Below are positions 22,584 to 50,786 of a stretch of 64,000 nucleotides of DNA, piece by piece. The notes beneath the pieces are model-generated. The model did no database searches. It worked only from the letters and a program-made list of their open reading frames with translations, and was not told where the DNA came from. Numbering within the stretch: position 1 is the first letter of the stretch; each line of letters opens with the position of its first letter. This stretch comes from Aminobacter anthyllidis (GTDB lineage: Bacteria; Pseudomonadota; Alphaproteobacteria; Rhizobiales; Rhizobiaceae). Location of the stretch: contig NZ_JAFLWW010000004.1 of assembly GCF_018555685.1 (NCBI RefSeq), positions 124,001 to 188,000 of the forward strand, given 5' to 3'. Both the position numbers and the translations under genes were made by a program.

Positions 22584-22590
22584 GGGGACG

Positions 22591-26807: not shown

Positions 26808-26818
26808 GGGAAGTTGCG

Positions 26819-33158: not shown

Positions 33159-33721
33159 CTACGCTTGGCGATGAGCCACGATAGACAGGCAGCGGACGGG
33201 CAATTTGGCAAGCTCGTCGGCACCGTGCTGGGTCGCTGCGTCGAAGAACAGGCTGTCACCTGGGGTCAGCCTGTAGGGGATTGCCCCATGCCGGAACACG
33301 ATTTCGCCTTGCAGTATGTAAAGGAAAACCATGCCTTGATGACTGCTTACCGGGAACACGTCGGTCTCGCATGTGAGAGTGATACAGGGCTCGACACGCA
33401 GTCCGGGCCAAGGGACTTGCATTCATGGCTGGCTGGCTCGAAGCCAGGAGCAGCGTCGCTGCCGGATCTTACGAAGACGGCAGTGCGCTCAGATTCGAAG
33501 CGGCTCACCAACCAGGTAATCGGCACGGCCAGGCCGCGTGATATCGCTTGCAAAGTCGTCAGGGAGGGTGAAATACCTCCGTTCTCGATTGTCGACAGCA
33601 TGCCGACCGACAGGTTGGCAGCCATCGCCAGGTCGCTCACCTTCATGCCGTGCCTGGTTCGAAAGGCGCGGACCTCCCGACCAATTGCGTTGTGCAACAA
33701 TGGTTCCCTGGCTTTTTTCAT
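33159..33721 (-). pseudogene. XRE-cupin transcriptional regulator, frameshifted
   Basis: Two adjacent minus-strand frames together make one regulator of about 185 residues. The first (from ATG 33719-33721; upstream ATG at 33799 also in frame) gives an XRE HTH: MKKAREPLLHNAIGREVRAF, then LSVGMLSTIENGGISPSLTT. Near 33420 similarity moves to a second frame giving the cupin sensor domain: ITLTCETDVFPVSSHQGMVF, EIVFRHGAIPYRLTPGDSLF, ending at 33159. The join is also shorter than in family members. Such regulators often control amine or amino-acid genes. Either it is inactivated or there is a sequencing error. It lies beside the NCS1 permease gene. Confidence 0.7.
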
Positions 33722-33824
33722 GATCGCTGGAATCCGGAACCATGTGCTGATGCAGGGGTGCGGCGTTGGCAAGTTCAGGTGACTTGGGTGATCCGTCACA
33801 TGAACGGATCACCCAAAATCGAGA

Positions 33825-35240
33825 TCAATATCCGCCGCGCCTTGCCGGCATCACCATCGTCCTGGTCAGGACGTAGTGAACGATCGCCGCTACAAAGCAG
33901 GCGGGCACCGAGGCGCTGACCCAGACGAACGGACCATGCGCTGCCAGCGATTGCGGATCGAACAGCGCATAATAGACAGCGCCGCCGGCGGCCAAAGCCA
34001 CGAACGATGCCGGGTTGATGCCGCCCCAGAAGGCGTAGTCGGAATCGGCACCGTCGTTGAAGACATCGCATTGCTTGATGCGGCCGCGACGCAGGATCAG
34101 GTAATCGACCGCCGTCACGCCTGAAAGGGGTGCAAAGCCGAGCGCGGTCCAGGCCAGAAACTTGAAGAAGTTGTCGTAGATCTGGCCAGGGAAGAAGGCG
34201 ATGACGATGACTGGAAGAAACAGCGCGCCAGTCAGCACCCCCCATGGGAGCGCTTCGAAATAGCGCCCACCCGCTTGCCGCATCGCCAGGCACATGCCGT
34301 AGAAGATGCTGACGATGGCGGTAATGTTTGCCAGGCCAACGAACAGCAGGGCTGTCACGCCGACAAAGGCGCCACCCAGCGGGATCATCCAAGCGGTAGG
34401 GTCATGCGATCCCAGGCTGAGCGCTGCAAACAGGCCAACCAGTTCGCCGAGCACAGCTGCTGCGAAGATGCCGATCAGGTTTGGCCACAGCGCTGCGCGC
34501 GGGGTGCGCGTGAACCGCGAGATGTTGCCCAGCACCGGCCACCAGCCAAAACCGGCCGCCAGATTGAATTCGACCGCGATCATGAAGTTGATCCGCTTGT
34601 CATCAAACGGCGCAAGAGGCGCGGCATTGGCGATGTCGCTCCAGCTCTTGTGGCTGAAGATGAGAAACAGGATGCCGAAGCATAAGATGAGCTTGCCAGG
34701 GCCGACAAAGCGGTTGAGCCATTTGACGGCGGTTGGGCCCTTCCATAGCAAGAGCCACGAGATCGCGATCGCGAGGATTGCGAACAGCGTGACCCCGAGG
34801 TCGTTTTCGCCGATATGCGTGCCGCCGACCTGGTTCATGACGCCGCTGATCGCGCGCCCGAACATGATCGACAGAACCGCCGACCAGCCGACGCCGTAGA
34901 TGGCCAGGAAAAATCCGACAAGGATCAGGATGCCGGTTGGTCCAAAAACGCTGCGCATCAGAGTGAACTGCTCGATGCCGAACTTGCCGGTCGAGATGCA
35001 GACGCTGACGGCCATGATCGACACGCCGATGACGTTGCCGATGATGATCGCATAGATGCCGTCGCGTGCTCCGACGACCAGGGCGGTGCTGCCGCCGAGC
35101 AGGAAGGCCCATGTGGCTATGGCGAGACCGATATTGATCCATGAATGATCGATGAAACCTAGCTCGCGCTCTTCTTTCAGCACCGGCAGCGTGCCGAAGG
35201 CGGCACTGGCGCCGGTGAATTTTGGTGCGGGGGCGGCCAT
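33825..35240 (-). CDS. NCS1-family permease (purine/cytosine/allantoin-type)
   Basis: This 471-residue transporter starts MAAPAPKFTGASAAFGTLPV at 35240; GGAGGGAAC lies just upstream. It has about 12 hydrophobic segments and NCS1 features (FIDHSWINIGLAIATWAFLLGG; GPGKLILCFGILFLIF; GFAPLSGVTAVDYLILRRG). NCS1 proteins import nitrogen heterocycles and related polar compounds by cation symport. Its start codon shares one base with the stop of a small membrane protein gene. It is divergent from the tetR-hypBA-ureohydrolase operon, so a guanidine- or biguanide-like substrate for that enzyme is likely, but this is inference. Confidence 0.88.
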   Translation of the reverse strand: MAAPAPKFTGASAAFGTLPVLKEERELGFIDHSWINIGLAIATWAFLLGGSTALVVGARDGIYAIIIGNVIGVSIMAVSVCISTGKFGIEQFTLMRSVFGPTGILILVGFFLAIYGVGWSAVLSIMFGRAISGVMNQVGGTHIGENDLGVTLFAILAIAISWLLLWKGPTAVKWLNRFVGPGKLILCFGILFLIFSHKSWSDIANAAPLAPFDDKRINFMIAVEFNLAAGFGWWPVLGNISRFTRTPRAALWPNLIGIFAAAVLGELVGLFAALSLGSHDPTAWMIPLGGAFVGVTALLFVGLANITAIVSIFYGMCLAMRQAGGRYFEALPWGVLTGALFLPVIVIAFFPGQIYDNFFKFLAWTALGFAPLSGVTAVDYLILRRGRIKQCDVFNDGADSDYAFWGGINPASFVALAAGGAVYYALFDPQSLAAHGPFVWVSASVPACFVAAIVHYVLTRTMVMPARRGGY

Positions 35241-35431
35241 CAGTTCCCTCCACTCCACATGGCGAGCGCGCCGATCAATATCGCCGCCGTTACGATGAAC
35301 CAGATGCCGATCTCCCGACCCGATATGTCGGCCCGGGCCGGATCTTCATAGCCGGGGGCTGAAATGATGTTCAGTCGTCGGTTCAATTCCCGACGTATTT
35401 CATTGTCTGGATTTTCTGAAGCGATAGTCAT
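35240..35431 (-). CDS. Small single-span membrane protein co-translated with the NCS1 permease
   Basis: This 63-residue protein starts MTIASENPDNEIRRELNRRL; ATG 35429-35431 follows a strong GGAGGAGG. The first 40 residues are polar and charged (LNIISAPGYEDPARADISGR) and the C-terminal part is one hydrophobic helix (EIGIWFIVTAAILIGALAMW). Its TGA overlaps the permease ATG by one base, so translation is coupled. I do not recognise the family. Size, topology and coupling suggest an accessory subunit of the transporter. It could be compared with small partner proteins known for other secondary carriers. Confidence 0.7.
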   Translation of the reverse strand: MTIASENPDNEIRRELNRRLNIISAPGYEDPARADISGREIGIWFIVTAAILIGALAMWSGGN

Positions 35432-36135
35432 TTCATCCTCCTCCAAAGATTAAATGAACACGAATACAGGATCCGATCGCTGTTTCGGGCCTGTTTCGAA
35501 ATCGATAGGCGTTCCCTACCTGCCGGAGCCGGCATAGCGCTGACCCGGGGCTTGCGCGGCAGCTATGTCTGTTTTGGGTTCGGGAATTTGCGGCGGGGTT
35601 CTCCTTGTTTGAATGGCCCCAGTTTCCAGCGGATTTTGGGATGAGGGGCGCACCACGAACTCTGTCGCCAGGGTTGCCACTCATCTGGCTATTACGTTGC
35701 GGCAGTTTGTTTTTGCTGTCAAACGATATCGTTGACATTGATGTAAAAAGATTAGCGCTGGTGCATATATGGAGCTGCCGTGGGCTCCTTGTTGCATTTA
35801 GTGTGCGATGGAGAGCGGGTAACTCCGTTGGGGGAGACTGACACCAGGACGGTGCCAATTTTCGCTGTAATTTCAACTGCCATGACAAGTTAAGCGCAGC
35901 TTGCCCGGATCCTGGGAAGTTTGAATTGGCGCGTTTTTGGGGCGGCCACTTTGGACCTCGAACGCCAGGCTGAGCAAAAAAGGTCGTTGACACCGATGTC
36001 AAAGCTACGTAGCGTCAAGGTCGAAAGAGCAATCGCAAGCCCTACCGCCCTCGACATCTGAGGCAGTACTTTGACCTCCTTCAGATATTGAAGCGACGCA
36101 CTGCGTCGAACCTTGCTCGAAGTCAGGAAGCATCA
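35432..36135. promoter_or_regulatory. Long divergent control region between NCS1 and TetR operons with repeated dyads
   Basis: About 700 bases, more AT-rich than the surroundings, with no convincing gene. Two near-identical elements are seen: CGTTGACATTGATGTAAAAA (35730-35749) and CGTTGACACCGATGTCAAAG (35985-36004). The second contains a perfect dyad TTGACA-N4-TGTCAA (35987-36002). In front of the first copy lies TGTCAA (35717-35722) and a CGATATCG palindrome (35724-35731). These are probable operators for the TetR protein encoded at 36136, placed to control both divergent units. One TTGACA could also be a -35 box. Confidence 0.6.
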
Positions 36136-36840
36136 ATGGTATCCGCTGCCCTCATTCATCTTGAAGATCGCGTGAAATCGGTCAAACGGGCCAAGGTCCG
36201 CTTCTACCGCAATCCTGGTGTTCGGGCGGAGTCTCTCCTGGAGGCGGCGCTCGAATGCTTCGCTGAAGAAGACTATGAGAGCGTGACGATCCCGCTTATT
36301 GCCAAAAAGCTGGGTGTTGCCCATTCCCTGATCTACTATTACTTCAAGAACAAGGACTCGCTTTACCAGTCTTCGGTGCTTCATGCGCTCGACCGACTGA
36401 TGACCAATTATGGCGAGGTCGTTGCACGGCATGACAGTCCGGCCGAGTTGCTGAGTGCCTACCTGGATCTCAATGTCGAGATGTCGGAAACGCTACGCAG
36501 CCTCGTGCGCATCATGTTCGTCAATGCCGGGGGCGCCAGCGATGCCGGCCCCAAGTTCATCGATAGCTTCGTCGAGGACTTCTATGAATCGGAAAAGCGA
36601 ATTCTTGCAGATTGCATCCGCCAGGGCGTCGAGATCGGAATGTTTACCTGCCCGGATCCCGAAGAGATGGCGGCATTCATCTCGCGCAACATAGACGGCA
36701 TCTACTTCGGCAGCTTCATGCCGCATGGCGCGCCGATCCCGGCGGCGATGCGTTACCTCAAGGAGGTGACCTGGGGCCTGCTGCATTATGCGGGAGATGC
36801 CAGGACCAAGACTCCGTCCACGACCAAAAGCGGGAGATAG
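36136..36840 (+). CDS. TetR-family transcriptional regulator
   Basis: This 234-residue protein starts MVSAALIHLEDRVKSVKRAK; AGGAAG lies 5 bases before ATG 36136, while an in-frame ATG at 36088 lacks one. The N-terminal HTH shows LLEAALECFAEEDYESVTIP and IAKKLGVAHSLIYYYFKNKD, the classic TetR recognition helix and YYxFxxKxxL end. The C-terminal ligand-binding domain is divergent. It is separated from hypB by only 2 bp, so it is cotranscribed with the Ni-ureohydrolase genes and probably senses their substrate or product. Confidence 0.9.
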   Translation: MVSAALIHLEDRVKSVKRAKVRFYRNPGVRAESLLEAALECFAEEDYESVTIPLIAKKLGVAHSLIYYYFKNKDSLYQSSVLHALDRLMTNYGEVVARHDSPAELLSAYLDLNVEMSETLRSLVRIMFVNAGGASDAGPKFIDSFVEDFYESEKRILADCIRQGVEIGMFTCPDPEEMAAFISRNIDGIYFGSFMPHGAPIPAAMRYLKEVTWGLLHYAGDARTKTPSTTKSGR

Positions 36841-36842
36841 CC

Positions 36843-37829
36843 ATGTGCCAGGTATGCGGCTGCGGGCCTGAGAACATTCGTATCGATGGCAAAGGCGATG
36901 CCGAGCTCGATGGAAGCCATGAGCATCACCATCACCATCACGATGGCCACCACCATCATCATGACGGGCACGACCACGGTCATTCCCATCATCATGGTCA
37001 TGATGGCGATCATCATCACGACAACGATCCCCGCCAAGTCGAAAATCCGCGCCACAGCGACCTGCATTTCGGCAAGGACGCCGCGAAGACCCACGTGCCG
37101 GGCATGAGCCAGAAGCGGTTGGTGCAGATCGAGCAGGAGATCCTAGCCAAGAACGGCATGTTTGCCGACGACGTCCGAGGCGAACTCTGTGGCCATGGCG
37201 TGCTTGGGCTCAATCTGATCGCCAGCCCCGGAGCGGGTAAGACCACCTTGCTGGTCGAAACGCTGCAGCGGTTGAAAGGCACGTTCCCGACCTGGGTGAT
37301 CGAGGGCGATCAGGAAACCTCCAACGACGCCGACCGTATTCGCGCCACCGACACCCAGGCGGTGCAGATCAACACCGGCAAGGGCTGCCACCTGGACGCC
37401 GATATGATCCAGCGCGCGCTTGCATCGCTTTCGCTGCAGCAGGGCGGAGTACTGTTCATCGAAAACGTCGGCAATCTGGCGTGCCCAGCCGGCTTCGATC
37501 TTGGCGAAGCGCACAAGGTGGTCATCTTGTCGGTGACCGAAGGCGACGACAAGCCGGTCAAATATCCGGAGGCGTTCGCCGCGGCCGACCTTCTGGTTAT
37601 CTCGAAGTCGGATCTGGCGCCCTACTGCGATTTCGACATCGAGGCCTGCGTTGCCCGCGCTCGTGAAGTCAACCCGTTGATCGAAACCATCGTGGTTTCG
37701 GCGCGTGACGGCACGGGCATGACGGAATGGCTCGACTGGATTGTCCGCGCCCGCCAACAGCAATTGCAGGACCTCGCGCGAGACCTGCAGACACGGGTCG
37801 AATCCATCCGCAATACATTGCACGCGTGA
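36843..37829 (+). CDS. hypB: HypB-type nickel-insertion GTPase with long His-rich region
   Basis: This 328-residue GTPase begins with the MCQVCGCG high-affinity nickel motif of HypB. A His-rich segment follows (residues 26-59) with 22 His mixed with Asp and Gly, expected to store nickel. The G domain shows P-loop ASPGAGKTT (127-135), GDQETSNDADRI, ENVGNLACP and the base-recognition SKSD. ATG 36843 is 2 bp after the tetR stop. No hydrogenase genes are present; its partners are HypA and the ureohydrolases immediately downstream. This matches dedicated Hyp-like accessory proteins known to load nickel into guanidine-type ureohydrolases. Confidence 0.93.
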   Translation: MCQVCGCGPENIRIDGKGDAELDGSHEHHHHHHDGHHHHHDGHDHGHSHHHGHDGDHHHDNDPRQVENPRHSDLHFGKDAAKTHVPGMSQKRLVQIEQEILAKNGMFADDVRGELCGHGVLGLNLIASPGAGKTTLLVETLQRLKGTFPTWVIEGDQETSNDADRIRATDTQAVQINTGKGCHLDADMIQRALASLSLQQGGVLFIENVGNLACPAGFDLGEAHKVVILSVTEGDDKPVKYPEAFAAADLLVISKSDLAPYCDFDIEACVARAREVNPLIETIVVSARDGTGMTEWLDWIVRARQQQLQDLARDLQTRVESIRNTLHA

Positions 37830-37839
37830 GGTTGGCGTC

Positions 37840-38229
37840 ATGCACGAACTCACTATCGCCTCAAGCATGATTGATCTCGCCAGCGATCACGCATCGCGCA
37901 ACGGCAGCGCGCGGGTCACCGGAATGCATGTGCGCCTTGGCGTCATGTGCGGCATTGCCCGCTCGCTCTATTTCTGCTTCGGCCCGGCGACGCGCGGCAC
38001 GCTTTGCGAAGGCGCCAAGCTGCACATCGAAGAGGTGCCGCTGACAATATTCTGCGAGCACTGCGCCGAGGCGCGCTCGCCGATCTCTCTTTCCAATCTT
38101 CGCTGCCCCGACTGCGGGAGGCCTTCACGCAAGGTGCTGTCCGGGCGCGAGATGGAACTGACCCATATCGAGCTTGAGGAAAAAGCTCCACATCCGGCGT
38201 TGGCCCCGGTTGGGCAAACACTTCAGTAG
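37840..38229 (+). CDS. hypA: HypA-type nickel metallochaperone
   Basis: This 129-residue protein starts with the nickel-binding MHE motif (MHELTIASSMIDLASDHA) and has the structural zinc site CEHC...CPDC (about residues 71-96). ATG 37840 lies 10 bp after hypB. HypA hands nickel to the target enzyme together with HypB; here the target should be the adjacent ureohydrolase, since no hydrogenase or urease is encoded in the window. The C-terminal 20 residues (LEEKAPHPALAPVG) are a variable tail. Confidence 0.93.
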   Translation: MHELTIASSMIDLASDHASRNGSARVTGMHVRLGVMCGIARSLYFCFGPATRGTLCEGAKLHIEEVPLTIFCEHCAEARSPISLSNLRCPDCGRPSRKVLSGREMELTHIELEEKAPHPALAPVGQTLQ

Positions 38230-38255
38230 TTACATCTGTTGGGAGGAACAGCAGC

Positions 38256-39329
38256 ATGCTTGATCGAAAAGCAGACATAGCCAAGTGGCAGTTCACGCCA
38301 CATCAACATCGTGGCCCTGCCGAGCAATTCGGCGAGAACGACCATATCTATTCCCCGAAACTGCACAACGGCTCGTTCAAATCCCGGGGTCTCGCGACCT
38401 TCATGGGCGCGCCCTATTGCCCGCCGGACCGCCACAAGATCCGGGAAATGGGCGCGAAGATCTGCTTTCTGGCCGTGCCTTGGGACCAGGGCCAGATCGT
38501 GCGCGCCGGTGCTTCGCAGGGTGCTTCAGGTCTGCGTGAGGCAACGACGCAGTACTTCCCCTACATGTTCGAATACGACGTCGACCTGCTGAGCTATTTC
38601 CGCATCGTCGACTGCGGCGATGTACCGACAGTGCCCGGCAACAACATCAAGTCGCAGGAATACACCACCGACTACGTCACCGAATGCCTCGAAGGTGGCG
38701 CCAAGGTGATCCTGTTCGGCGGCGATCACTCTCTGCCGATCCCTGGCGCCAAGGCGCTGTCGCGCTTCACCGGCGCCGGCAAGATGGGTTACCTGCACGT
38801 CGACAGCCATCTCGACGCCGGACCCGATTGGGCCGGCAATCTGATCACCAACTGCTCCGGCGCGCCGCGCGCTCTCGACCTGCCCAACTGCAATGCCAGA
38901 AACATGGCGCATATGGGCTCGCGCAACGGCCTCAATCCCAAGGACTGGTGGGACTTCTACGTCGACAACGAGATCCGCGTCGTCACCATGCCCGAGATGA
39001 TCGAGCGCGGGCTGGAGGTGTGCGCCAACGAGATTTTCGAACGGGTGAAGAAGGACGCCGACACACTCTACTTCACCTGGGATACGGACTCGATCGACAT
39101 GAGCTGCATGCCCGGCTCGACTTCGCCGGAATGCTACGGCCTGAAGGGGCGCGAAGCGATCCAGTTCGCGCGGATCGCCGGCCGACACGGCTGCGACATT
39201 CTCGATGTCGTCGAGCTCTGCCCTTACTTCGACTCGAGCCAGATCAGCGCCAAGATGACGGTCAACATGATCTACCACTATCTCGGCTCGCGAGCCCAGA
39301 CGCTGCGTCAGCAGGGCAAGCAACCGTAA
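38256..39329 (+). CDS. Ni-dependent ureohydrolase, catalytic (alpha) subunit; substituted-guanidine or biguanide hydrolase type
   Basis: This 357-residue member of the arginase/agmatinase family keeps all six metal ligands: His158 (FGGDHSL), Asp183, His185 and Asp187 (HVDSHLDAG), Asp276 and Asp278 (TWDTDSIDMSCMPG). An N-terminal extension (about 1-45) precedes RGLATFMGAPYCP, as in the guanidine-hydrolase branch rather than classical agmatinase. GGGAGGAAC precedes ATG 38256. Linkage to hypBA and a HupE permease argues for nickel instead of manganese. A second, ligand-poor paralogue follows, the arrangement known for metformin hydrolase and the related dimethylguanidine hydrolase. Products would be dimethylamine plus urea or guanylurea. 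Which substrate it uses cannot be decided from sequence alone. Confidence 0.85.
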   Translation: MLDRKADIAKWQFTPHQHRGPAEQFGENDHIYSPKLHNGSFKSRGLATFMGAPYCPPDRHKIREMGAKICFLAVPWDQGQIVRAGASQGASGLREATTQYFPYMFEYDVDLLSYFRIVDCGDVPTVPGNNIKSQEYTTDYVTECLEGGAKVILFGGDHSLPIPGAKALSRFTGAGKMGYLHVDSHLDAGPDWAGNLITNCSGAPRALDLPNCNARNMAHMGSRNGLNPKDWWDFYVDNEIRVVTMPEMIERGLEVCANEIFERVKKDADTLYFTWDTDSIDMSCMPGSTSPECYGLKGREAIQFARIAGRHGCDILDVVELCPYFDSSQISAKMTVNMIYHYLGSRAQTLRQQGKQP

Positions 39330-39354
39330 GAATTCTCAGGGAGGAGATACAGTC

Positions 39355-40401
39355 ATGAACCCAGCAAAATCCTACGCCCACCTGTTCTCGCCACTAGGCG
39401 GCGACGCTGGTGACAACTACCGCGCACCTGGCCTGATCACGTTCCTGCGTTCGGCCCACGTGCCGCTGAACGCCGAAGCGCTCAAGGCCTGCGGCGCCAA
39501 ATATGCCTTCGTCGGCGTGCCCTTCGATGAGGGCAATGTCGGCAAGCCCGGATCGGAGGACGGACCGCGCGAATTCCGCCTCGTCTCGCAGGAGTACTTC
39601 TCCTATTGGTTCGAATACAATGTCGACCTGCACGGCGCGGCTGTCGATTGCGGCGACGTTTCGATGCCGAAGGTCAGCCCGGAGGTGGCGCACGAGCGCA
39701 TCTATCGTGCGGTCCGCGAAGTGCTGAAATCCGGCCTCACGCCGATCATCTGCGGTGGCGACCGCTCGATCTCGATCGCCGCGGCGCGCGCGCTTTCAGA
39801 CCATATCGGCGCAAACAAAAAGATGGGCTACATGCATTTCAGCGCCCAGCTCGACATGGCCGACAGCTGGGCCGGCGAGCGCAATCTCGCCCCTTGCGCC
39901 ATGGCCCGCATCACAGAGCTGCCCAACCTCGATATCAAGAATGTCGCGCATCTGGGTGCTCGCAATGCTATGAACCCGAAGGACCATATCGACCTGTCGA
40001 AGGAGAGGGGGCTTCAGTTCGACTCGATGTTCGATCTGTTTGACGGGGGCATCTACCCGTTGGTCGAGCGCTCGATCGAGCGGGTCTGGGGCGATACCGA
40101 CGCGCAGTATCTCAGCTTCAATTTCAACGTCATGGATTCGTCGGCAGCACCCGGCGTCACCTCGACGGAACCAGGCGGCATCGAGTCGCGGGAGATGATG
40201 CGCATCGCCGACATGATCGCCAAGCGAGGCAGTGTCAGCGTCATCGATCTCACCGAGCTTTGCCCGATCTTCGACATCAGCGGCACGGCGGCGCGGCTCG
40301 CAGCCTGCGTCATCATGCGGTTGATGGCGTCGTTGGCGGCACAAAATGGCGACGTGATCGACGCCAACCTGCGCCGCACCGACCTGGTCGCCGCTGAGTA
40401 A
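39355..40401 (+). CDS. Ureohydrolase-family non-catalytic (beta) subunit
   Basis: This 348-residue paralogue of the preceding gene has lost five of six metal ligands: Arg137 replaces the His (GGDRSI), Ser163 and Gln165 replace Asp and His (HFSAQLDMAD; Asp167 remains), Asn256 and Asn258 replace the last Asp pair (FNFNVMDS). The fold is otherwise well kept (GLITFLRSAHVPL; PIICGGDRSISIAAARAL; LCPIFDISGTAARLAA), so it is a maintained structural partner, not a decaying copy. In metformin hydrolase a comparable beta subunit completes an alpha4beta2 hexamer. It is preceded by AGGGAGGAG and lies 25 bp after the alpha gene. Confidence 0.87.
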   Translation: MNPAKSYAHLFSPLGGDAGDNYRAPGLITFLRSAHVPLNAEALKACGAKYAFVGVPFDEGNVGKPGSEDGPREFRLVSQEYFSYWFEYNVDLHGAAVDCGDVSMPKVSPEVAHERIYRAVREVLKSGLTPIICGGDRSISIAAARALSDHIGANKKMGYMHFSAQLDMADSWAGERNLAPCAMARITELPNLDIKNVAHLGARNAMNPKDHIDLSKERGLQFDSMFDLFDGGIYPLVERSIERVWGDTDAQYLSFNFNVMDSSAAPGVTSTEPGGIESREMMRIADMIAKRGSVSVIDLTELCPIFDISGTAARLAACVIMRLMASLAAQNGDVIDANLRRTDLVAAE

Positions 40402-40448
40402 CAGACAAACACTTGGACAAGGCCGGCTGCGGCCGGCCACAGGAGTTG

Positions 40449-41069
40449 ATGGTGAACACGATAACGAACACGAAGAAGATGACGCAGTTCGCTGCAGCGG
40501 TTGCTGTTGCCTATGTCGCGTCGACGATGCCGAGCTACGCGCATTTTCTGCCCGAAGCCGGCGGCCTTGGAGCGGGTCTATCTCACCCGCTCTCCGGGCT
40601 CGACCATATCCTTGCCATGGCCGGAGTCGGCATCTGGGCCGGGCAGAATGCCGACAACGAGCCGGTGTTCCGTTGGCTGCCGCTGGGCTTCGTCATCGGC
40701 ATGATCGCCGGCGCGGTGTTTGGCATGACCGGGCTGTCGCTTCCCTTCGTCGAACTTGGCATTGCCGGATCGGTCGTTCTTCTTGGAGCAATCGTTGCAC
40801 TGGGCAGCCGAGTGCCGTTCGGCGCGGCCTTTGCGATGACCGTTGTCTTTGGCGGCCTGCATGGCTTTGCCCATGGTCAGGAATTGCCAATCGCCAGCAA
40901 TGCCTTCCTCTACGGGCTGGGCTTTGTCGCTTCGACCGTGGTCCTGCATGCGATGGGCTTTTCGTTGGCAACCTTCGTTGCGCGCCTGTCCTGGCGCACA
41001 GCGCTCAAGGTGGGCGGCGGCGGCATCGCCGCAGCGGGCGTTGCCCTGGCCGCCGGCCTGGCTGGCTGA
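40449..41069 (+). CDS. hupE: HupE/UreJ-family nickel permease
   Basis: This 206-residue membrane protein starts at ATG 40449 after CAGGAG. It has a signal-like first helix ending at SYAHFLPEAGG, then the family motif HPLSGLDHILAMAGVG with His and Asp, FGGLHGFAHGQE with further His, and six hydrophobic helices. HupE/UreJ proteins carry nickel into the cell and are usually found with hydrogenase or urease genes. Its presence here supports nickel as the cofactor of the ureohydrolase pair. Confidence 0.9.
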   Translation: MVNTITNTKKMTQFAAAVAVAYVASTMPSYAHFLPEAGGLGAGLSHPLSGLDHILAMAGVGIWAGQNADNEPVFRWLPLGFVIGMIAGAVFGMTGLSLPFVELGIAGSVVLLGAIVALGSRVPFGAAFAMTVVFGGLHGFAHGQELPIASNAFLYGLGFVASTVVLHAMGFSLATFVARLSWRTALKVGGGGIAAAGVALAAGLAG

Positions 41070-41273
41070 TCAGTTGAACCAGGTGATCGGCGGAGCCGGC
41101 GCGGCCGCGCTCCGCCTGGCCTGAGCGTTGGAGGGCGCTCAGGCCCATCGCCTCCACAAAAAATCCTGAAATTCTGTCGCTGGCCATACTCATGTGGAGC
41201 GACGAACGAAAGTTCTGGCGCATGTCTGCCGCGCCGGCACGAAATCTGTTTGCCAAAATTACCGGAGGATACA
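41070..41273 (+). other. Intercistronic region with two GC-rich hairpins
   Basis: Between hupE and the gcvT-like gene are two stems. The first is GGCGGAGC / GCTCCGCC (about 41089-41116). The second is GGCCTGAGCG (41118-41127) and its complement (41136-41145) with an 8-nt loop. No T-run follows, so partial termination or RNA processing is more likely than full termination. The gcvT-like gene has its own strong CGGAGGA site (41264-41270). Confidence 0.5.
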
Positions 41274-42407
41274 ATGACTTTGAGCTGGCGCTTTACCGCC
41301 CTCGGCGACCGCCATCGCGCGCTGGGTTCCAATCTCGAGGATTGGAGCGGCATGGGCACCGCGTGGACTTACGATGCCGACCCGTTCGACCAGCATGTTG
41401 CGATCCGCACCAAGGCCGGCCTTATGGACGTTTCGGGCTTGCGCAAGATGCACCTGATTGGACCGCATGCGATCGCGGTTCTTGAGTATGTCACGACGCG
41501 CAGCGTCGCAAAGATTCAGCCGGGTCGTTCGGTCTATGCCGCCATGCTCAACGAGCGCGGCCATCTGATCGACGATTGCGTGATCTACCGCAACGGCCCC
41601 AACTCATGGATGCTGGTCTCCGGCACCGGCACCGCGCATGAAGAGATCATCAAGCAGGCGGCGGGCCGCAACTGCGCCGTGCTGTTCGACGACGACCTGC
41701 ACGATCTTTCGCTGCAGGGGCCGGTGGCGGTCGATTTCCTTGCCAAGCACGTGCCAGGCATTCGCGAACTCAACTATTTCCACCACGTTCACACCACGCT
41801 GTTTGGTGCTCCGGTGACCATTTCGCGGACCGGCTACACCGGCGAGCGCGGCTACGAGATCTTCGTACGCGGCCAGGATGCACGCCTTGTCTGGGACACC
41901 ATCTTGTCCGAGGGCAAGGAGATGGGCATCATTCCGTGCTGCTTCAGCACGCTCGACCTGCTGCGCGTCGAGAGCTATCTGCTGTTTTTCCCCTACGACA
42001 ACTCGCAGATGTACCCGCTTCCCGGTCAACCGGCCGGCGACAGCCTGTGGGAACTCGGCCTCGACTTCACCGTTTCGCCTGGCAAGACCGGCTTCCGCGG
42101 TGCCGAGGAACATTACCGCCAGAAGGGCAACGAGCGCTTCAAGATCTTCGGCATGCTGATCGAAGGCGACAAGATGGCCGATCTCGGCGACGAGGTCTGG
42201 GCCGATGGAAAGAAGGTCGGCGTCATCACCTGCCCATCCTATTCGAAGCTGACCAAGCGTTCGATGGCGATTGCCCGTCTCGACGTGCCCTACGCCAGGC
42301 AGGGCGTGAAGCTCGAGGTGCGCGGCAAGTCGCTCAATGCCAGTGCCATCGCCCACACGCTGACCTTCGACGATCCGGAAAAGAAAAAGCGTACCGCAAA
42401 GGGCTGA
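41274..42407 (+). CDS. GcvT-like tetrahydrofolate-dependent aminomethyltransferase family protein
   Basis: This 377-residue protein starts MTLSWRFTALGDRHRALGSN after CGGAGGATACA. It has the GcvT folate domain, including VAIRTKAGLMDVSGLRKMHL, MLNERGHLIDDCVIYR (Asp pair at the folate site), SRTGYTGERGYEIFV, and the C-terminal barrel (VGVITCPSYSKLTKRSMAIA). Family members move one-carbon groups to tetrahydrofolate (glycine cleavage T protein, DmdA, dimethylglycine oxidase tail). No glycine-cleavage P, H or L genes are nearby, so it is not the housekeeping GcvT. At the end of a ureohydrolase operon it may handle a methylated amine or methylated guanidine product; this is inference. Confidence 0.82.
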   Translation: MTLSWRFTALGDRHRALGSNLEDWSGMGTAWTYDADPFDQHVAIRTKAGLMDVSGLRKMHLIGPHAIAVLEYVTTRSVAKIQPGRSVYAAMLNERGHLIDDCVIYRNGPNSWMLVSGTGTAHEEIIKQAAGRNCAVLFDDDLHDLSLQGPVAVDFLAKHVPGIRELNYFHHVHTTLFGAPVTISRTGYTGERGYEIFVRGQDARLVWDTILSEGKEMGIIPCCFSTLDLLRVESYLLFFPYDNSQMYPLPGQPAGDSLWELGLDFTVSPGKTGFRGAEEHYRQKGNERFKIFGMLIEGDKMADLGDEVWADGKKVGVITCPSYSKLTKRSMAIARLDVPYARQGVKLEVRGKSLNASAIAHTLTFDDPEKKKRTAKG

Positions 42408-42736
42408 GACGCACGGGTGATGCTTTGATCGCTGCGCTGCTCGATCGCCCGGTCGATTGTGGCGCAGTGTGATAGCGAAGCGGGCACTTCGACTTCGAAG
42501 CGCCCGCTTCGGGAATGGATAGGCCAGGTCCAAGTTGGGACCTCAGGCTTGGTCGTCTCCGCGACTGGTTTTCAACCGAGCCAGATCAAATAACATGCTG
42601 GCTGAAATCCGCTGCTCAGCGCTATTACGCCTGATGGCCCATCAGCCGCTTGGCGTAGCCGGGTATCTCAAGCACTGTGGAGCACCCAGTGGCGCATGAC
42701 GCCATTGCGGAAAGCCATGACGCCGCCGGCGACGAC
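42408..42736. other. Gap between convergent operons with a strong hairpin
   Basis: No complete gene. A perfect 10-bp stem CGAAGCGGGC (42476-42485) and complement (42502-42511), with an inner CTTCG/CGAAG pairing, lies 68 bp after the gcvT-like stop. It is a likely terminator region although no T-run follows. The remaining bases up to the permease stop at 42737 show short minus-strand coding-like scraps but nothing supportable. Confidence 0.5.
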
Positions 42737-43390
42737 CTAGCGTCGATGGAGGCGCTGGCGGGATTCGTAGAGATATTGCAGGCAGATGATAACTGCGGCG
42801 ATCAGCAGATAAAAAACCGACACGACCAGCAGCACTTCGATTGCCTTGTAGGTCTCGGCGATGATCGTGGTCGATGCTGCGGTCAGCTCGTCGATGGCGA
42901 CCAGGCTGGCCAACGAACTGCCCTTGACCATCTGGATGGCGTTGGAAAACAGCGACGGTGCGGCGAGCCGATAAGCCTGTGGGGTCATCACCTTCCAGTA
43001 GATGGCGAAGGGTTTCAGCCCGAGCGCCTTGGCCGCGTCGAGCTGGCCCGCGGGCACGCTTTCGAAGCCGGAGCGCAGGAATTCGAGATTGTAGGCGGTC
43101 GAAGCGAATATCAGGCCGATCAGCGCAGAGGGCACCGGCTCGAGATAGATGCCGAGCCGGGGCAGCCCGTAATAGAGTGCAAACAGCAATGCCAGCACGG
43201 GTGCAGCGCGAGCGAAGAAGCTGTAGGCGATGATCAAGCGCCGGAAGACGCCATCCGGCCGCTGCATGTAGATGGCGAGCGGCAACGCAAGAAGGTTCGA
43301 CACGACAATGACAATCACGGAGATCAGCAGCGTCATGCCGAGCCCGTTGAGCAGCATGTGCTGGTAGCTGGGGTCGAGAAGGATGCTCAT
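42737..43390 (-). CDS. Polar amino-acid-type ABC transporter permease (second)
   Basis: This 217-residue permease starts MSILLDPSYQHMLLNGLGMT at 43390 and overlaps the preceding permease by 4 bp. It has the His/Glu/Arg-opine-type core: five hydrophobic helices, the RSGFESVPAGQLDAAKALGL EAA loop and IYWKVMTPQAYRLAAPSLFS. A long upstream extension of the frame to 44137 is a shadow of the neighbouring permease. It pairs with the protein at 43387. No ATPase gene is linked, so the ATPase must be supplied from another locus. Confidence 0.9.
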   Translation of the reverse strand: MSILLDPSYQHMLLNGLGMTLLISVIVIVVSNLLALPLAIYMQRPDGVFRRLIIAYSFFARAAPVLALLFALYYGLPRLGIYLEPVPSALIGLIFASTAYNLEFLRSGFESVPAGQLDAAKALGLKPFAIYWKVMTPQAYRLAAPSLFSNAIQMVKGSSLASLVAIDELTAASTTIIAETYKAIEVLLVVSVFYLLIAAVIICLQYLYESRQRLHRR

Positions 43391-46207: not shown

Positions 46208-47317
46208 ATGGGCTCGACGGGCGAGCCTTGGCGCGTCGGCGTCCTCTTCTCGCAATCCGGAGATACCGGGGCGATCGAGGAGACGCAGCTCAAGGGCACG
46301 ATGCTGGGCATCGCCGAAATCAACGCGGCCGGCGGCATCAATGGCCGTGAGATCGTGCCAATCATCTATGATCCGACATCCAGCACCGAACTCTATTCCC
46401 ATTATGCGCGGAAGCTTTTGATCGAGGATCGCGTCACGACAATCTTCGGTTGCTACACTTCGACAAGCCGCAAGGCCGTGCTGCCGCTGGTAGAGCGGGT
46501 CAATGCGCTGCTCTGGTATCCGACGCGCTACGAGGGCTTCGAATTCTCGCCCAACATCATCTACACCGGGTCCTCGCCCAACCAGAACACCATCGAGCTG
46601 ATCAACTACCTGCTCACGACCCACGGTAACCGGTTCTACCTGCTCGGCACCGACTATTGTTATCCCAGGCGGACCAACCGGATCGTTCGCGATCTGGTGT
46701 GTGGCCAGGGTGGCACGATCGTCGGCGAGGAATATCTGGGTTTCGGTGCGAGCCCGAACGATTTTCGACCGATCATCCGCGACCTGCGCAACAACAAGCC
46801 CGACGTCATCTTTTCGACGGTCGTCGGTCAGGCGATCTCTCACTTCTACCAGGCCTACACTGACGCCGGCTTCACCCCCGACAACATGCCCATCGGCAGC
46901 TTGAACACCTGCGAGGCGGAACTGCGGCTCATGGGAACGGACGTCGGGGCCGGACACATCACCGCTGCGACCTATTTCGAGAGCGTGGAGAATGAAGAAA
47001 ACGACCGCTTCGTTCGCCTCTTTAAGCAGCGTTTCGGCGAAGATGAGTCGACCAACATGTGTGCCGAGGCTGCATATTTCCAGGTTCACCTCTTCGCCCA
47101 GGCCGTCGCCGAGACGAACAGCATGGACACCGACACCTTGCGCCCGGCGGTGCTTGGCCGGGAAATCGCAGCCCCTCAGGGGCGGATTGGCATCGACTAT
47201 AAGAACAGCCATGCCGAGCTTTGGACGCGGATCGGTAAGGCAGACGACCACGGCCGGTTCGACATTCTGCGGGAATCGATGGTCGCGCTGCGGCCCGACC
47301 CATTTCTCGTGACGTGA
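46208..47317 (+). CDS. amiC: AmiC-type cytoplasmic amide/urea-sensing regulator
   Basis: This 369-residue protein has the periplasmic-binding-protein fold (Peripla_BP_6 type) without a signal peptide, as in Pseudomonas AmiC. Features: VGVLFSQSGDTGAIEETQLK, GTMLGIAEINAAGGINGREI, CYTSTSRKAVLPLVERVNAL, LWYPTRYEGFEFSPNIIYTG. In Pseudomonas AmiC binds AmiR and releases it when amide is present. An alternative TTG start at 46202 adds two residues. It is followed by amiR and then by an amide/urea-type transporter operon, which fits a sensor of the transported compound. Confidence 0.9.
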   Translation: MGSTGEPWRVGVLFSQSGDTGAIEETQLKGTMLGIAEINAAGGINGREIVPIIYDPTSSTELYSHYARKLLIEDRVTTIFGCYTSTSRKAVLPLVERVNALLWYPTRYEGFEFSPNIIYTGSSPNQNTIELINYLLTTHGNRFYLLGTDYCYPRRTNRIVRDLVCGQGGTIVGEEYLGFGASPNDFRPIIRDLRNNKPDVIFSTVVGQAISHFYQAYTDAGFTPDNMPIGSLNTCEAELRLMGTDVGAGHITAATYFESVENEENDRFVRLFKQRFGEDESTNMCAEAAYFQVHLFAQAVAETNSMDTDTLRPAVLGREIAAPQGRIGIDYKNSHAELWTRIGKADDHGRFDILRESMVALRPDPFLVT

Positions 47318-47360
47318 GGGTGACCGACTTGCCTGAGAGCTCAGCATACGAGGTTCGGTC

Positions 47361-48032
47361 ATGAGCGGTCCTTCTGCTTCTCGCGGATACCACGGAGCGG
47401 GCGCCGATGGGTCGCAGCGTGCAAGCGGTGCGCAACCAAGGGCTACGCGCGGATCGGGCAGCGTGCAGGCGGAATTGCGCCAGTCGACAGTGCTGCTTGT
47501 CCATCCGCGCGACAGTGAGGGCGATGCCGTCGCGCGTGAGGTCAGGCGAGTTGGATGCCGCGTCGAGATGGCCTGGCCAGCGCCAACACTGCCGCCAATC
47601 GGATTCGACTTCGCACTGGTGGCAATCGATGCCGAAGTGCTTGCGGCCGCCCCATGGCTTTCCGGTGCGCCGCCGGTGCCCGTCGTGGCAGTCGTCGACG
47701 GCGACAAGGGCGTGCCTGTCGACGTGCTCAGGCTTTCCAATGCTCAGGCGGTATTAGTCAAGCCATGCCAGCCAGCCGCGATCCTGTCCAACTTAGCGCT
47801 GGCGCGAAATGTGTTCAGCTACGAACGGCGGTTGCTCAACAAGGTAGCGAAACTCGAAGAGACGCTGCATGCCTCGCGGCAGATCGAGCAGGCCAAGCTC
47901 ATCCTGATGACGCAGAAGAAGCTGCGTGCCAACGAGGCTTATGACTACCTGCGACGGCAAGCCATGACCAAGCAGATGTCGGTCGCCGCAATTTCCGCCG
48001 CCCTGGTTGACGCCTACGGCCTGATGGAATAA
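47361..48032 (+). CDS. amiR: AmiR-type ANTAR-domain transcription antiterminator
   Basis: This 223-residue protein has an N-terminal pseudo-receiver domain (about 45-140: STVLLVHPRDSEGDAVAREV, FDFALVAIDAEVL), a coiled-coil linker (SYERRLLNKVAKLEETLHAS) and a C-terminal ANTAR RNA-binding domain (about 165-220: AKLILMTQKKLRANEAYDYL, RRQAMTKQMSVAAISAALVD). AmiR binds leader RNA and stops premature termination. A strong terminator lies directly downstream, in front of the hydrolase-transporter operon. The N-terminal 40 residues are an extra low-complexity stretch compared with the 196-residue Pseudomonas protein. Confidence 0.9.
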   Translation: MSGPSASRGYHGAGADGSQRASGAQPRATRGSGSVQAELRQSTVLLVHPRDSEGDAVAREVRRVGCRVEMAWPAPTLPPIGFDFALVAIDAEVLAAAPWLSGAPPVPVVAVVDGDKGVPVDVLRLSNAQAVLVKPCQPAAILSNLALARNVFSYERRLLNKVAKLEETLHASRQIEQAKLILMTQKKLRANEAYDYLRRQAMTKQMSVAAISAALVDAYGLME

Positions 48033-48344
48033 TATCAAAGTGTTCGTGAGGCCTCGTGGCTTCCGAAGGCTCCAAGTGAGCCAATCTCCGCAGCAAAAGC
48101 GCTGCGTTTCATAGAGGATCAAGATTGACCTCGCGCAAACTCAGGTTTCTGAGTGCGCGGGGTTTTTGCGTTTTTCTACCGCCTGTGGCTCGCGCCAGGA
48201 GAAATACGCCAGGAGGTTTGAGGTAGGCATCAACTGACCCTCGCGGGTCGGAAAGAATACTTATTGCCTGATCGGAACTATCGCAACGGCTGCCCCGAGT
48301 GGGGCGGCTGAACCCTGAACTATTGCCAAATGCAGGAGGTAGCT
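48033..48344 (+). promoter_or_regulatory. Leader region, probable AmiR antitermination target
   Basis: No gene. Two small hairpins lie in tandem, GGCTC-N5-GAGCC (48068-48082) and CGCAGC-N6-GCTGCG (48089-48106), six bases apart, followed 22 bp later by a strong intrinsic terminator (48129-48176). ANTAR proteins recognise paired stem-loops with six-base loops, of which only the second hairpin has a six-base loop, so the exact recognition element is uncertain. The hydrolase gene follows with a strong AGGAGGT site (48334-48340). Confidence 0.6.
48129..48176 (+). terminator. Intrinsic terminator in front of the hydrolase/urea-transport operon
   Basis: A long stem pairs CCTCGCGC and ACTCAG with CTGAGT and GCGCGGGG (one GU pair, a 2-nt bulge), with a 4-nt loop, followed by TTTTTGCGTTTTT. 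It lies between amiR and the operon that AmiR should control, as in an attenuator. Confidence 0.88.
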
Positions 48345-49382
48345 ATGGCGCAGTGGAAGATAGACAAGGAAGTTGACTACGAAATCTTCGAGCTTGGAGA
48401 TCTGAAACTCCAGAAAGGGATGACCCTTCCCAACGCAAAGCTGGCATACAAGACGTTTGGCAGGCTCAATGCCGACAAGAGCAATGTCATTCTCCTGCTG
48501 ACCTACATGGCCTCGACCCACTACGACAACCAGTGGGTCATCCGTGAAGGCGGCGCGCTCGACCCGAGCAAGTATTTCATCATTATCCCCAACGTCTTCG
48601 GCAACGGCCTGTCGTCCTCGCCGAGCAACACGCCGGCGCCCTACAACAAGGCGCGCTTTCCGCATGTCACCTACTACGACAACATCAAGGCCCAGCATCG
48701 CCTGCTGACCGAGAAGTTCGGCATCACCAAGATCAAGATGGTCACCGGTTGGTCGATGGCCGCTGCGCAGACGTTCCATTGGGCCGCGCTCTATCCCGAC
48801 ATGGTCGAGACCATCTGCCCGACTGCCGGCTCAGCGAAGACGGCAAAGCATAACCACGTCATGCTGGAGGGCGTGAAGGCGGCACTGACGGCCGACGATT
48901 CCTTCAAGGAAGGCTGGTATGACGACCAGCCGTTCAAGGGCCTGCGCGCTATGGGGCGCGTCTATGCCGGCTGGGGCTTCTCGCAGGAATTCTTCCGTAA
49001 GGAGGAATATCTCGAGCTCGGCTACGCCTCCGTCGAGGACTTCATCGTCGGCTATTGGGAGCAGTGGTTCAACCTGCGCGACGCCAACAACATGGTCGCG
49101 ATGATCCGCACCTGGCAGTCCGGCGACATCAGCGACAACGAGCTCTACAACGGCGACTTCCGCAAGGCGCTCGGCGCCATCAAGGCCAAGGCGATCGTCA
49201 TGCCGGGCGACTGCGACCTCTACTTTCCGCCGGAAGACAGCGCGTTCGAGGTCGAACACATGCCGAATGCGGAACTTCGCCCCTTCCGCTCGAGCCACGG
49301 GCACTTCGCCGGCGGCTCCGGCCTCAGGCAGGCGGATGTGAAGTTTCTTGACGAAGCCTGGCGGGAGTTGCTGGCGAGCTGA
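48345..49382 (+). CDS. Alpha/beta-hydrolase (MetX-like fold) of an amide/urea transport operon
   Basis: This 345-residue hydrolase starts MAQWKIDKEVDYEIFELGDL after AGGAGGT. It shows the MetX-like N-terminal region (LPNAKLAYKTFGRLNADKSN), a nucleophile elbow GWSMAA (Ser near residue 134), a C-terminal Asp in MPGDCDLYFPPED and His in RSSHGHFAGG. This completes a Ser-Asp-His triad. The motif GWSMAA differs from the GGSMGG of homoserine acetyltransferases, so acyl transfer to homoserine is unlikely. It occupies the position that amidase or formamidase genes take in ami/fmd operons, so an amide- or ester-cleaving role is inferred. Confidence 0.8.
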   Translation: MAQWKIDKEVDYEIFELGDLKLQKGMTLPNAKLAYKTFGRLNADKSNVILLLTYMASTHYDNQWVIREGGALDPSKYFIIIPNVFGNGLSSSPSNTPAPYNKARFPHVTYYDNIKAQHRLLTEKFGITKIKMVTGWSMAAAQTFHWAALYPDMVETICPTAGSAKTAKHNHVMLEGVKAALTADDSFKEGWYDDQPFKGLRAMGRVYAGWGFSQEFFRKEEYLELGYASVEDFIVGYWEQWFNLRDANNMVAMIRTWQSGDISDNELYNGDFRKALGAIKAKAIVMPGDCDLYFPPEDSAFEVEHMPNAELRPFRSSHGHFAGGSGLRQADVKFLDEAWRELLAS

Positions 49383-49421
49383 GCCGCAACGTCTTTCCTT
49401 TCCGATCATGAACTTGGACCG

Positions 49422-49443
49422 GGCCTATCCGCACGGATAGGCC
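49422..49443 (+). other. Perfect intercistronic hairpin
   Basis: GGCCTATCCG (49422-49431) and its complement (49434-49443) form a perfect 10-bp stem with a 2-base centre, located 21 bp before the binding-protein start. No T-run follows. Likely a processing or stability element between the hydrolase and transporter messages. Confidence 0.6.
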
Positions 49444-49464
49444 TCAAAGCAAAGGGGAACGCAA

Positions 49465-50712
49465 ATGATAATAAATTCAAGCGTCAATCGCCGGTCATTC
49501 CTGAAGACGACAGCAACTGCTGCTGCAAGCCTGGGCCTGATCGGCGCGGGTGGCCGCGCTTTCGCGCAAGAAGACACGATCAAGATCGCCAGCTTGCTCG
49601 ATCTTTCCGGCGGTCTCGATGCGGCCGGAAAGCCGATGCAGGACGCCATCACCTTCGCCGTCGAGGAGATCAACCAGGCAGGCGGGTTGCTGGGCAAGCA
49701 GATCAGCCTGATCACCTACGATACCCAGACCGACATGCGGCTCTATCCGCAGTATTCCCAGCAGGCGGCTTTGAAGGACAAGGTGTCCGCCGTGTTTGGC
49801 GGCATCACGTCAGCCTCCCGCGAGGTGATGCGGCCGGTACTTCGGCGGCTCAACACGCTGTATTTCTACAACACCCAATATGAAGGCGGCGTCTGCGACC
49901 GCAACATTTTCTGTACCGGCATTACGCCGGCCCAGAAACAATCCAAGCACGTGCCCTATGCCATGAACAAATGGGGCAAGAAGATCTACACGCTGGCTGC
50001 TGACTACAATTACGGCCAGATCACCGCCGCCTGGACCCGCAAATACTGCACTGAGAACGGCGGACAGATCGTTGGCGAGGATTTCTTCCCGCTCGACGTA
50101 ACCAACTTCGGATCGACCATCCAGAAGATCCAGGAGGCCAAGCCCGACTTCCTCTATCTCGTCCTGGTCGGTGGCGCGCATCAGTCGTTCTACCGGCAAT
50201 GGGCGGCCGCCGGCATGAACAAGCAGATCCCGATGGCGTCGACGACGATGACCATCGGTGGCGAGCAGATGGTGCTTTCGCCCGAGGAGACCAACGGCAT
50301 CCTGTTGTGCTTCAATTATTTCGAGGCGCTCGAAACACCAGCCAACAAGGCCTTCCTGGAGCGCTTCCACAAACGCTTTGGCGCCGACTACCCTTATGTG
50401 ACCGAGCTGGCCATGGCGACCTACCAGTCGGTCTATCTGTGGGCGGAAGGTGTCAAGAGGGCAGGCACCGCCGAGCGCATGCCGGTGATCGAAGCGCTCG
50501 AGTCCGGCATCAGCCTCGACCTGCCCAGCGGCAAGTTCTCGATCGATCCGCAGACGCATCACTGCGTCATGGACATCAATATCGGCCAGATCCAGGACCG
50601 CAAGATCAACATCCTGGAGAGCTTTTCGCAGCAACAGCCGCTCGACACCTCGGGTGTCTGCGATCTCAAGAAGAACCCTGACGACAACTCGATGTACGTC
50701 ATCAAGGTCTGA
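49465..50712 (+). CDS. urtA: Urea/short-chain-amide ABC transporter, substrate-binding protein (UrtA/FmdD-like)
   Basis: This 415-residue receptor has a twin-arginine signal (NRRSFLKTTATAAASLGLIG, cleavage near AFAQ at about residue 33). The mature part has the urea/amide branch features: KIASLLDLSGGLDAAGKPMQ, VNQ-like FAVEEINQAGGLLGKQI, FGGITSASREVMRPVLRRLN, LYFYNTQYEGGVCDRNIFCT. Length fits UrtA. Regulation by AmiC/AmiR suggests the ligand is an amide or urea. It is distantly related to the cytoplasmic AmiC sensor encoded upstream, which may bind the same ligand. Confidence 0.88.
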   Translation: MIINSSVNRRSFLKTTATAAASLGLIGAGGRAFAQEDTIKIASLLDLSGGLDAAGKPMQDAITFAVEEINQAGGLLGKQISLITYDTQTDMRLYPQYSQQAALKDKVSAVFGGITSASREVMRPVLRRLNTLYFYNTQYEGGVCDRNIFCTGITPAQKQSKHVPYAMNKWGKKIYTLAADYNYGQITAAWTRKYCTENGGQIVGEDFFPLDVTNFGSTIQKIQEAKPDFLYLVLVGGAHQSFYRQWAAAGMNKQIPMASTTMTIGGEQMVLSPEETNGILLCFNYFEALETPANKAFLERFHKRFGADYPYVTELAMATYQSVYLWAEGVKRAGTAERMPVIEALESGISLDLPSGKFSIDPQTHHCVMDINIGQIQDRKINILESFSQQQPLDTSGVCDLKKNPDDNSMYVIKV

Positions 50713-50731
50713 GCGACCCAAAAAAGCTTGC

Positions 50732-50763
50732 GGGTCGTTCGGTCGCGTTGGAGCGAACGACCC
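50732..50763 (+). other. Intercistronic hairpin after the binding-protein gene
   Basis: GGGTCGTTCG (50732-50741) and its complement (50754-50763) form a 10-bp stem with a 12-nt loop between the binding-protein gene and the first permease gene. This is the usual place for RNA elements that raise binding-protein expression. Confidence 0.6.
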
Positions 50764-50786
50764 TGCAGCGTTCCAGGAGGCCTGAA

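Follow-up and report, generated by a model that had tools for sequence, protein, structure and literature searches.

This report concerns a gene cluster at positions 36136-42407 of a 64,000-nucleotide window of Aminobacter anthyllidis DNA (contig NZ_JAFLWW010000004.1, positions 124,001 to 188,000). We are highly confident that the cluster is the dimethylguanidine hydrolase (DmgH) system of an Aminobacter strain, a predicted nickel enzyme that would convert N,N-dimethylguanidine to urea and dimethylamine. Gene content, metal ligands, specificity residues, phylogeny and the identity of a folate-binding protein, DmmD, were assigned here by sequence; nickel, the hexamer and the substrate would carry over from proteins 93-99% identical, for which they were established elsewhere. 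The system closely matches one published in 2024. Because the DmgH of a sister strain has already been expressed and assayed (PMC11399263), the cluster is less notable than an earlier reading of the same DNA (the original prediction) had held.

Seven genes had been proposed at 36136-42407, and the open reading frame positions and Pfam matches gave all seven there on the plus strand. The cluster also extends upstream, where a divergent NCS1 transporter belongs to it, which adds to the gene list. The features were as follows.

33825-35258, minus strand: NCS1-type transporter, MetT homologue, probable substrate importer (Transp_cyt_pur 6.2e-23; 91.3% over 435 aligned residues with the metformin-plasmid permease)
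35732-35747: operator-like site TTGACATTGATGTAAA, NCS1 side (TGACA-N4-TGTAAA in six of six aligned loci)
35987-36002: operator-like palindrome TTGACACCGATGTCAA, TetR side, candidate TetR site in a conserved flank
36136-36840, plus strand: TetR/AcrR regulator, MetR1 homologue (TetR_N 2.3e-15; 81.6% with the metformin-plasmid homologue)
36843-37829, plus strand: HypB-type nickel GTPase with a His-rich tail (CobW/HypB/UreG 3.9e-21; TIGR00073 hypB 265.5 bits, cut-off 121.2)
37840-38229, plus strand: HypA-type nickel metallochaperone (HypA 3.5e-25; TIGR00100 92.3 bits, cut-off 88.1)
38256-39329, plus strand: predicted DmgH alpha, catalytic ureohydrolase subunit (Arginase 1.2e-47; S184 and STS288-290)
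39355-40401, plus strand: predicted DmgH beta, non-catalytic ureohydrolase subunit (Arginase 3.8e-53)
40449-41069, plus strand: HupE/UreJ nickel permease (HupE_UreJ 2.4e-44)
41089-41145, plus strand: two strong hairpins in the gap from hupE to the DmmD-like gene, lacking a U tract and outside the set of terminator-like sites
41274-42407, plus strand: DmmD-like folate-binding protein (GcvT fold) of dimethylamine catabolism (GCV_T 2e-58)

The assignment is carried by the two ureohydrolase subunits. Alpha was identical to crystallised metformin hydrolase (8x3g_A) at 334 of 357 positions (93.6%), and beta to the B chain 8ryi_C at 324 of 348 (93.1%). All six metal ligands of alpha (H158, D183, H185, D187, D276 and D278), the same six named by Sinn et al. 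(PMC11399263), were kept; in our alignment beta had R, S, Q, D, N and N at these positions and so kept one of the six. This bore out the proposal of a ligand-complete ureohydrolase beside a ligand-poor paralogue. Four ligands are replaced in MefH-beta according to Sinn et al. (PMC11399263), and three to five in the clade according to Li et al. (PMC11271267). One scan of genome contigs with an alignment of eight alphas and two peptide patterns, which miss distant relatives, gave 37 related loci (loci and not genomes, as some genomes give two). All 35 alphas not cut by contig ends had six of six ligands, and beta was found in 34 of the 37 loci. Among 36 beta rows (these 34 loci, the window and one plasmid), one ligand was kept in 8, two in 25 and three in 3, with an unread residue at a ligand position in one row.

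A quick tree of 68 rows placed 38 alphas on one side of a branch with a Shimodaira-Hasegawa-like approximate likelihood ratio (SH-aLRT) support of 99, and 21 betas likewise with a support of 100; the outgroup branches were long (program warning) and the deep order is unsure. The outgroups were seven of the genome's eight other Arginase-family matches (C12:846296, on contig C12, was left out) and two further single ureohydrolases, and alpha and beta stood apart from all of them. By NCBIfam, five of the seven passed the agmatinase cut-off (TIGR01230) and one the arginase cut-off. A position of alpha inside agmatinase or guanidinobutyrase clades was looked for and did not occur in this tree. Two metformin hydrolase alphas nested within the Aminobacter alphas. 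The 93% identity of both subunits to crystallised metformin hydrolase, together with their separate branches, supports the predicted architecture of a heteromeric nickel ureohydrolase.

The substrate had been left open between metformin, dimethylguanidine and another substituted guanidine, and the active-site comparison narrowed it to dimethylguanidine as the predicted one. Read directly, the four specificity residues of alpha were S184 and S288-T289-S290, all in the DmgH state, and the metformin hydrolase state (C184, N288-S289-A290) was absent from the window alpha. Swapping these four residues of DmgH to the metformin hydrolase state brings metformin activity (PMC11399263). The window alpha and the alpha of A. 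niigataensis DSM 7050 (L022) were 98.6% identical, with 5 of 357 residues differing, and the two betas 97.7%. The DmgH of DSM 7050 is reported to hydrolyse N,N-dimethylguanidine and not metformin, and dimethylguanidine serves this strain as sole carbon, nitrogen and energy source (PMC11399263). The closest named relative of alpha was in A. carboxidus DSM 1086 (99.7%). The locus of DSM 7050 had the same switch residues and the order NCS1, TetR, hypB, hypA, alpha, beta, hupE and dmmD; it differs in belonging to another strain, and the window copy is known from sequence alone. The window alpha differed from MetCa at 23 of 357 positions, and Sinn et al. likewise report 23 differences between DmgH and the metformin hydrolase alpha (PMC11399263). 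The assayed Hyphomicrobium DmgH, 70% identical, lies outside the comparison of the triplet 288-290.

The genes around the pair are consistent with a nickel enzyme. HypB had 26 His among its first 120 residues, as the description "His-rich" implied, and the NCBIfam HypB prefix domain was present. The related loci contained hypA in 33 of 37 and hypB in 30 of 37 (in L045 hypB lay downstream, and some contigs start just upstream of alpha). Activation depended on HypA and HypB according to Sinn et al. (PMC11399263). The statement that hydrogenase and urease genes are lacking held within the window, where a genome-wide search gave no NiFe hydrogenase large subunit and no Urease_alpha domain. For urease it failed on the scale of the genome. 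Urease_alpha matches were found on contig C27, at C25:202112 and, weakly, on C12 (E 6.8e-4, frame with a stop), and the one at C25:202112 lay on the contig of the window, past its right end and about 36 kb beyond the DmmD gene. A urease downstream of the cluster is also mentioned by Sinn et al. (PMC11399263). The whole genome gave no NiFe hydrogenase match, so HypA and HypB are not explained by a hydrogenase.

The original prediction had put all seven genes in one tight operon. The intergenic gaps from TetR to HupE were 2, 10, 26, 25 and 47 bases, which agrees with this for the first six genes but not for the GcvT-fold gene, which lay 204 bases from HupE behind the hairpins. The gap (41070-41273) had a folding energy of -90 kcal/mol (z -3.84), and none of 200 shuffles was equally stable. 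Because this gap folds into strong hairpins, the GcvT-fold gene may have its own transcript and form a separate transcription unit.

The label "GcvT-like" held for the fold of this protein, and its neighbours and tree refined the identity to DmmD of dimethylamine catabolism. Its closest plasmid relatives, among the best 40 of 151 records, were of the aminomethyltransferase family where annotated. DmmA, DmmB and DmmC directly adjoined the homologue in all six annotated regions of 60-81% identity (R. leguminosarum, S. meliloti, P. aminophilus, Rhizobium CCGE531, Paracoccus MA and Acinetobacter ANC 7454); the DmmA of S. meliloti, a hypothetical protein by annotation, was identified with tblastn, and a seventh region (Methylobacterium, 38% match) was without annotation. 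A careful tree of 18 rows grouped the five dmgH-linked proteins in a clade (100/100) within a DmmD clade of 12 rows (100/100), next to the DmmD of Rhizobium and Sinorhizobium with a support of 93/91, below the program's star. The window protein was 79-80% identical to the DmmD proteins encoded in dmmDABC of R. leguminosarum and S. meliloti, and shares their fold and clade (PMC5520151). A glycine cleavage T protein was considered and rejected, as the score was under the cut-offs of those models and the tree placed the protein with DmmD.

A complete dmmDABC was found on contig C12 (L063), with identities to R. leguminosarum of 74.5% (DmmD), 50.8% (DmmA), 53.6% (DmmB) and 76.9% (DmmC). Because it carries its own DmmD, only 69% identical to that of the window, the window gene is predicted to be a second DmmD, and the two copies are seemingly of separate descent. 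In contrast to the DmmD of dmmDABC clusters, the window copy adjoins dmgH, and dmmABC lies on C12; dmmD is not strictly co-located in M. silvestris either, as implied in PMC5520151. DmmD adjoined dmgH in 4 of the 37 related loci, all Aminobacter, and with the window in five of five Aminobacter dmgH loci seen. DmmD is proposed to load formaldehyde onto tetrahydrofolate, and R. pomeroyi is described as needing dmmD to grow on methylated amines, and the gene as not essential in M. silvestris and P. aminophilus (PMC5520151). DmmABCD is reported on the chromosome of Aminobacter sp. MET in a metformin paper (PMC9800807) and dmmDABC in Aminobacter in a genus survey (PMC8235418), so the metabolic link to DmmABCD is not new. 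New here is the physical linkage of a DmmD to dmgH; our literature search found no paper naming both dimethylguanidine and dimethylamine monooxygenase. The DmmD beside dmgH gives independent genomic support for dimethylamine as a product, and with it for a natural substrate that is a dimethylated guanidine, a question left open by those who first described DmgH (PMC11399263).

Several observations weigh against this assignment or parts of it. The 204-base gap and hairpins set the DmmD gene off, which may not be co-transcribed with dmgH, and dmmABC alone oxidises dimethylamine in E. coli (PMC5520151). The gene could therefore be a mere neighbour and not a functional part of the system; its absence from the stretch of one Pseudomonas metformin plasmid and from 33 of the 37 related loci, several of them short, points the same way. 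However, the adjacency in every Aminobacter dmgH locus seen and the action of the DmmD family on the product of DmgH make this unlikely, although it is the alternative that we take most seriously. As to the substrate, N,N-dimethylguanidine has not yet been identified in biological systems according to Sinn et al., who also report a millimolar Michaelis constant (PMC11399263), and its natural source is again called elusive in PMC12508155. Both points would fit an enzyme of the same architecture whose native substrate is another substituted guanidine and for which dimethylguanidine hydrolysis is a side activity, as would the split of the related loci by residues and transporter, which suggests several substrates; the published panels that cover a wider range of substrates concern the metformin enzymes. 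We consider this improbable, as the DmgH of DSM 7050 acts on dimethylguanidine, the strain grows on it (PMC11399263), and the neighbouring DmmD points to dimethylamine as the product.

A 93.8% identical homologue hydrolysed metformin, about 20,000-fold below MetCaCb (Li et al., PMC11271267). That the pair splits metformin to guanylurea and dimethylamine in nature could also be argued from its identity to MetCa and MetCb and from the gene order NCS1 to HupE, which is the same as on the metformin plasmid. Metformin hydrolase (MefH, MetCaCb or MfmAB; PMC11271267, PMC11399263, PMC11647477) shares the subunit pair, ligands, nickel genes and NCS1 and TetR homologues with the window, but it has C and NSA where the window has S184 and STS288-290, and the 26-kb stretch of the Pseudomonas plasmid gave no match for DmmD, which the window has. 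With all four published switch residues in the DmgH state, no growth of DSM 7050 on metformin (PMC11399263), and no rescue of metformin uptake by the DSM 7050 MetT, for which the authors allow differences in expression (PMC13390362), we regard natural metformin hydrolysis as very improbable. Two further points against our assignment concern nickel and urea. Li et al. found the HypAB homologues not essential in vitro, yet needed for growth on metformin (PMC11271267), and a urease gene was beside none of the seven related loci of the residue type of the window (many contigs are short and the absence is weak). That the pair is a common manganese agmatinase or guanidinobutyrase beside an unrelated pseudo-paralogue has next to no credibility: membership of the arginase family and a sub-threshold agmatinase match (117.8 against a cut-off of 174.3 bits) are generic, alpha and beta were below the curated cut-offs for agmatinase, arginase and formimidoylglutamase and apart from the seven other ureohydrolases of the genome, five of them over the agmatinase cut-off, and nickel genes flank the pair on both sides.

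For the DmgH system, the steps would run as follows, the roles of transport, regulation, DmmD and urease in this strain being our inference. The NCS1 transporter would import N,N-dimethylguanidine, HupE would import Ni2+, and HypB and HypA would load two Ni2+ into alpha. Alpha and metal-free beta would form an alpha2-beta4 hexamer that converts N,N-dimethylguanidine to urea and dimethylamine. Urea would go to the urease about 36 kb downstream, DmmABC on contig C12 would convert dimethylamine to methylamine and formaldehyde, and the dmgH-linked DmmD would help to transfer formaldehyde to tetrahydrofolate.

TetR probably controls both divergent units through the two operator-like sites. The TTGACACCGATGTCAA site was TTGACA-N4-TGTCAA in five of six aligned loci, with one mismatch in the sixth (metformin plasmid). 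A search of the window with the pattern hit no other sites (4 matches over both strands against 0.25 expected); the pattern was drawn from the two sites by eye, so this chance count is partly circular. A guanidine riboswitch was considered and rejected, as no Rfam RNA family was found in the window at gathering thresholds. In the region 35240-42750, no consensus sigma-70 promoters were found against 2.4 expected by chance, and 5 intrinsic terminators against 6.2 expected, which is no signal.

The NCS1 gene adjoined dmgH in 4 of the 37 related loci, all Aminobacter. An alpha relative was present in three plasmid records, and our plasmid comparison used one of them, the 26-kb stretch from Pseudomonas. 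The annotated order on the Pseudomonas hydrolytica plasmid, counted among metformin plasmids in PMC9800807, was XRE, cytosine permease, TetR, hypB, hypA, alpha, beta and HupE. MetT and MetR1 are described as members of the metformin cluster (PMC11271267, PMC13390362). The combination of metT with metCaCb homologues is not new, as 10 strains that have both and are not known metformin users are already reported (PMC13390362). The XRE regulator beside the NCS1 gene (33347-33799) has 150 amino acids and is possibly truncated; the metformin-plasmid XRE at the same place has 642 bases.

The related loci fell into types by residues 288-290: type I with STS (7), type II with TTA (13) and type III with TSC (14), besides one with TTY and two cut off by contig ends. 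A gene for a PotD-like solute-binding protein was found in 14 of 14 type III loci, 0 of 13 type II loci and 1 of 7 type I loci (L025), and UreF in 7 of 13 type II loci (UreC in 5) and in none of the 14 type III or 7 type I loci; many of the contigs are short and the absences weak. No urease gene was found on the examined stretches of the 14 type III loci. Because urease adjacency is limited to type II, urea as product is supported for type II and not directly for the type of the window. Residues 288-290 tracked the neighbouring transporter, which suggests, without proving it, that the types differ in substrate and that there is more than one substrate class. Three of the four metformin-switch residues did occur in these relatives (C184 in every type II and type III locus, S289 in type III and A290 in type II); N288 alone was not seen.

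The type III loci were L034, L035, L037, L038, L040, L043, L044, L046, L049-L052, L054 and L055, and together with L048 (TTY, PotD-like transporter not seen) they formed one clade of 15 rows. Downstream urease genes accompanied the type II loci L029, L031, L032, L041 and L045 (UreF and UreC) and L028 and L053 (UreF only); these pairs often had a glutamine-synthetase-like gene and an NMT1-type ATP-binding cassette (ABC) transporter, consistent with a urea product. An extra single ureohydrolase lay near the alpha-beta pair in two Rhodospirillales metagenome-assembled genomes (L038, 19090-20301; L027, 12164-13393), and the two grouped together. Within the genus, dmgH was found in 5 of 10 genomes searched. 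It was rare in two even draws of genomes, with 5 of 397 in the order (E <= 1e-100) and 1 of 398 in the phylum (E <= 1e-90); all three counts include the genome of the window.

Synonymous distances (dS, Nei-Gojobori) between the window and the KHPS2 metformin plasmid were 0.36-0.82 over seven genes. They were 0.24-0.68 over six genes between the window and DSM 7050, 0.14-0.75 in other Aminobacter comparisons, and 0.236 between the DSM 7050 and plasmid alphas. The ratio of nonsynonymous to synonymous distance for alpha was 0.091 toward the metformin enzyme and 0.023 toward DSM 7050. At general bacterial substitution rates, we judge such synonymous distances too large to have arisen since metformin use began. 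Since dS to the metformin plasmid matches dS between Aminobacter dmgH loci, the split of these loci from the plasmid cluster should predate metformin. With distances of this size, recent evolution must be confined to the specificity switch and its spread; the unswitched ancestor of the lineage concerned is absent from our sample. This agrees with Sinn et al., who place the change within Aminobacter (PMC11399263).

Elsewhere in the window, the region 46208-54091 downstream of the cluster contained a Peripla_BP_5 protein and an AmiR/ANTAR protein, which we take to be AmiC/AmiR-like, with an alpha/beta hydrolase and a branched-chain type ABC transporter. Genes of sugar-acid catabolism lay at 17390-27781 (sugar-type solute-binding protein, ABC ATPase, 2-keto-3-deoxy-galactonokinase, gluconolactonase-like, IlvD/Edd dehydratase and dihydrodipicolinate synthase-like). 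One open reading frame of 1283 amino acids (7883-11734) joined hydantoinase/oxoprolinase A and B domains.

The Aminobacter dmgH clusters may be a natural module dedicated to dimethylguanidine as a source of carbon and nitrogen (importer, nickel loading, hydrolase and its own DmmD); dimethylguanidine or a close relative would then be real in nature. The wider family would hold at least one further hydrolase type (the 14 loci with C184, TSC and a PotD-like ABC transporter in all 14), and metformin hydrolase would come from an unsampled dmgH lineage that split off long before the drug. We hold this joint reading tentatively, with belief and doubt close to balance and doubt slightly ahead. The window adds one more Aminobacter strain to those that carry dmgH, and metformin degradation is thought to have originated in this group. 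Synonymous distance offers an easy check on the age of the metformin enzyme, and the residue and transporter types are ready targets for substrate screens.

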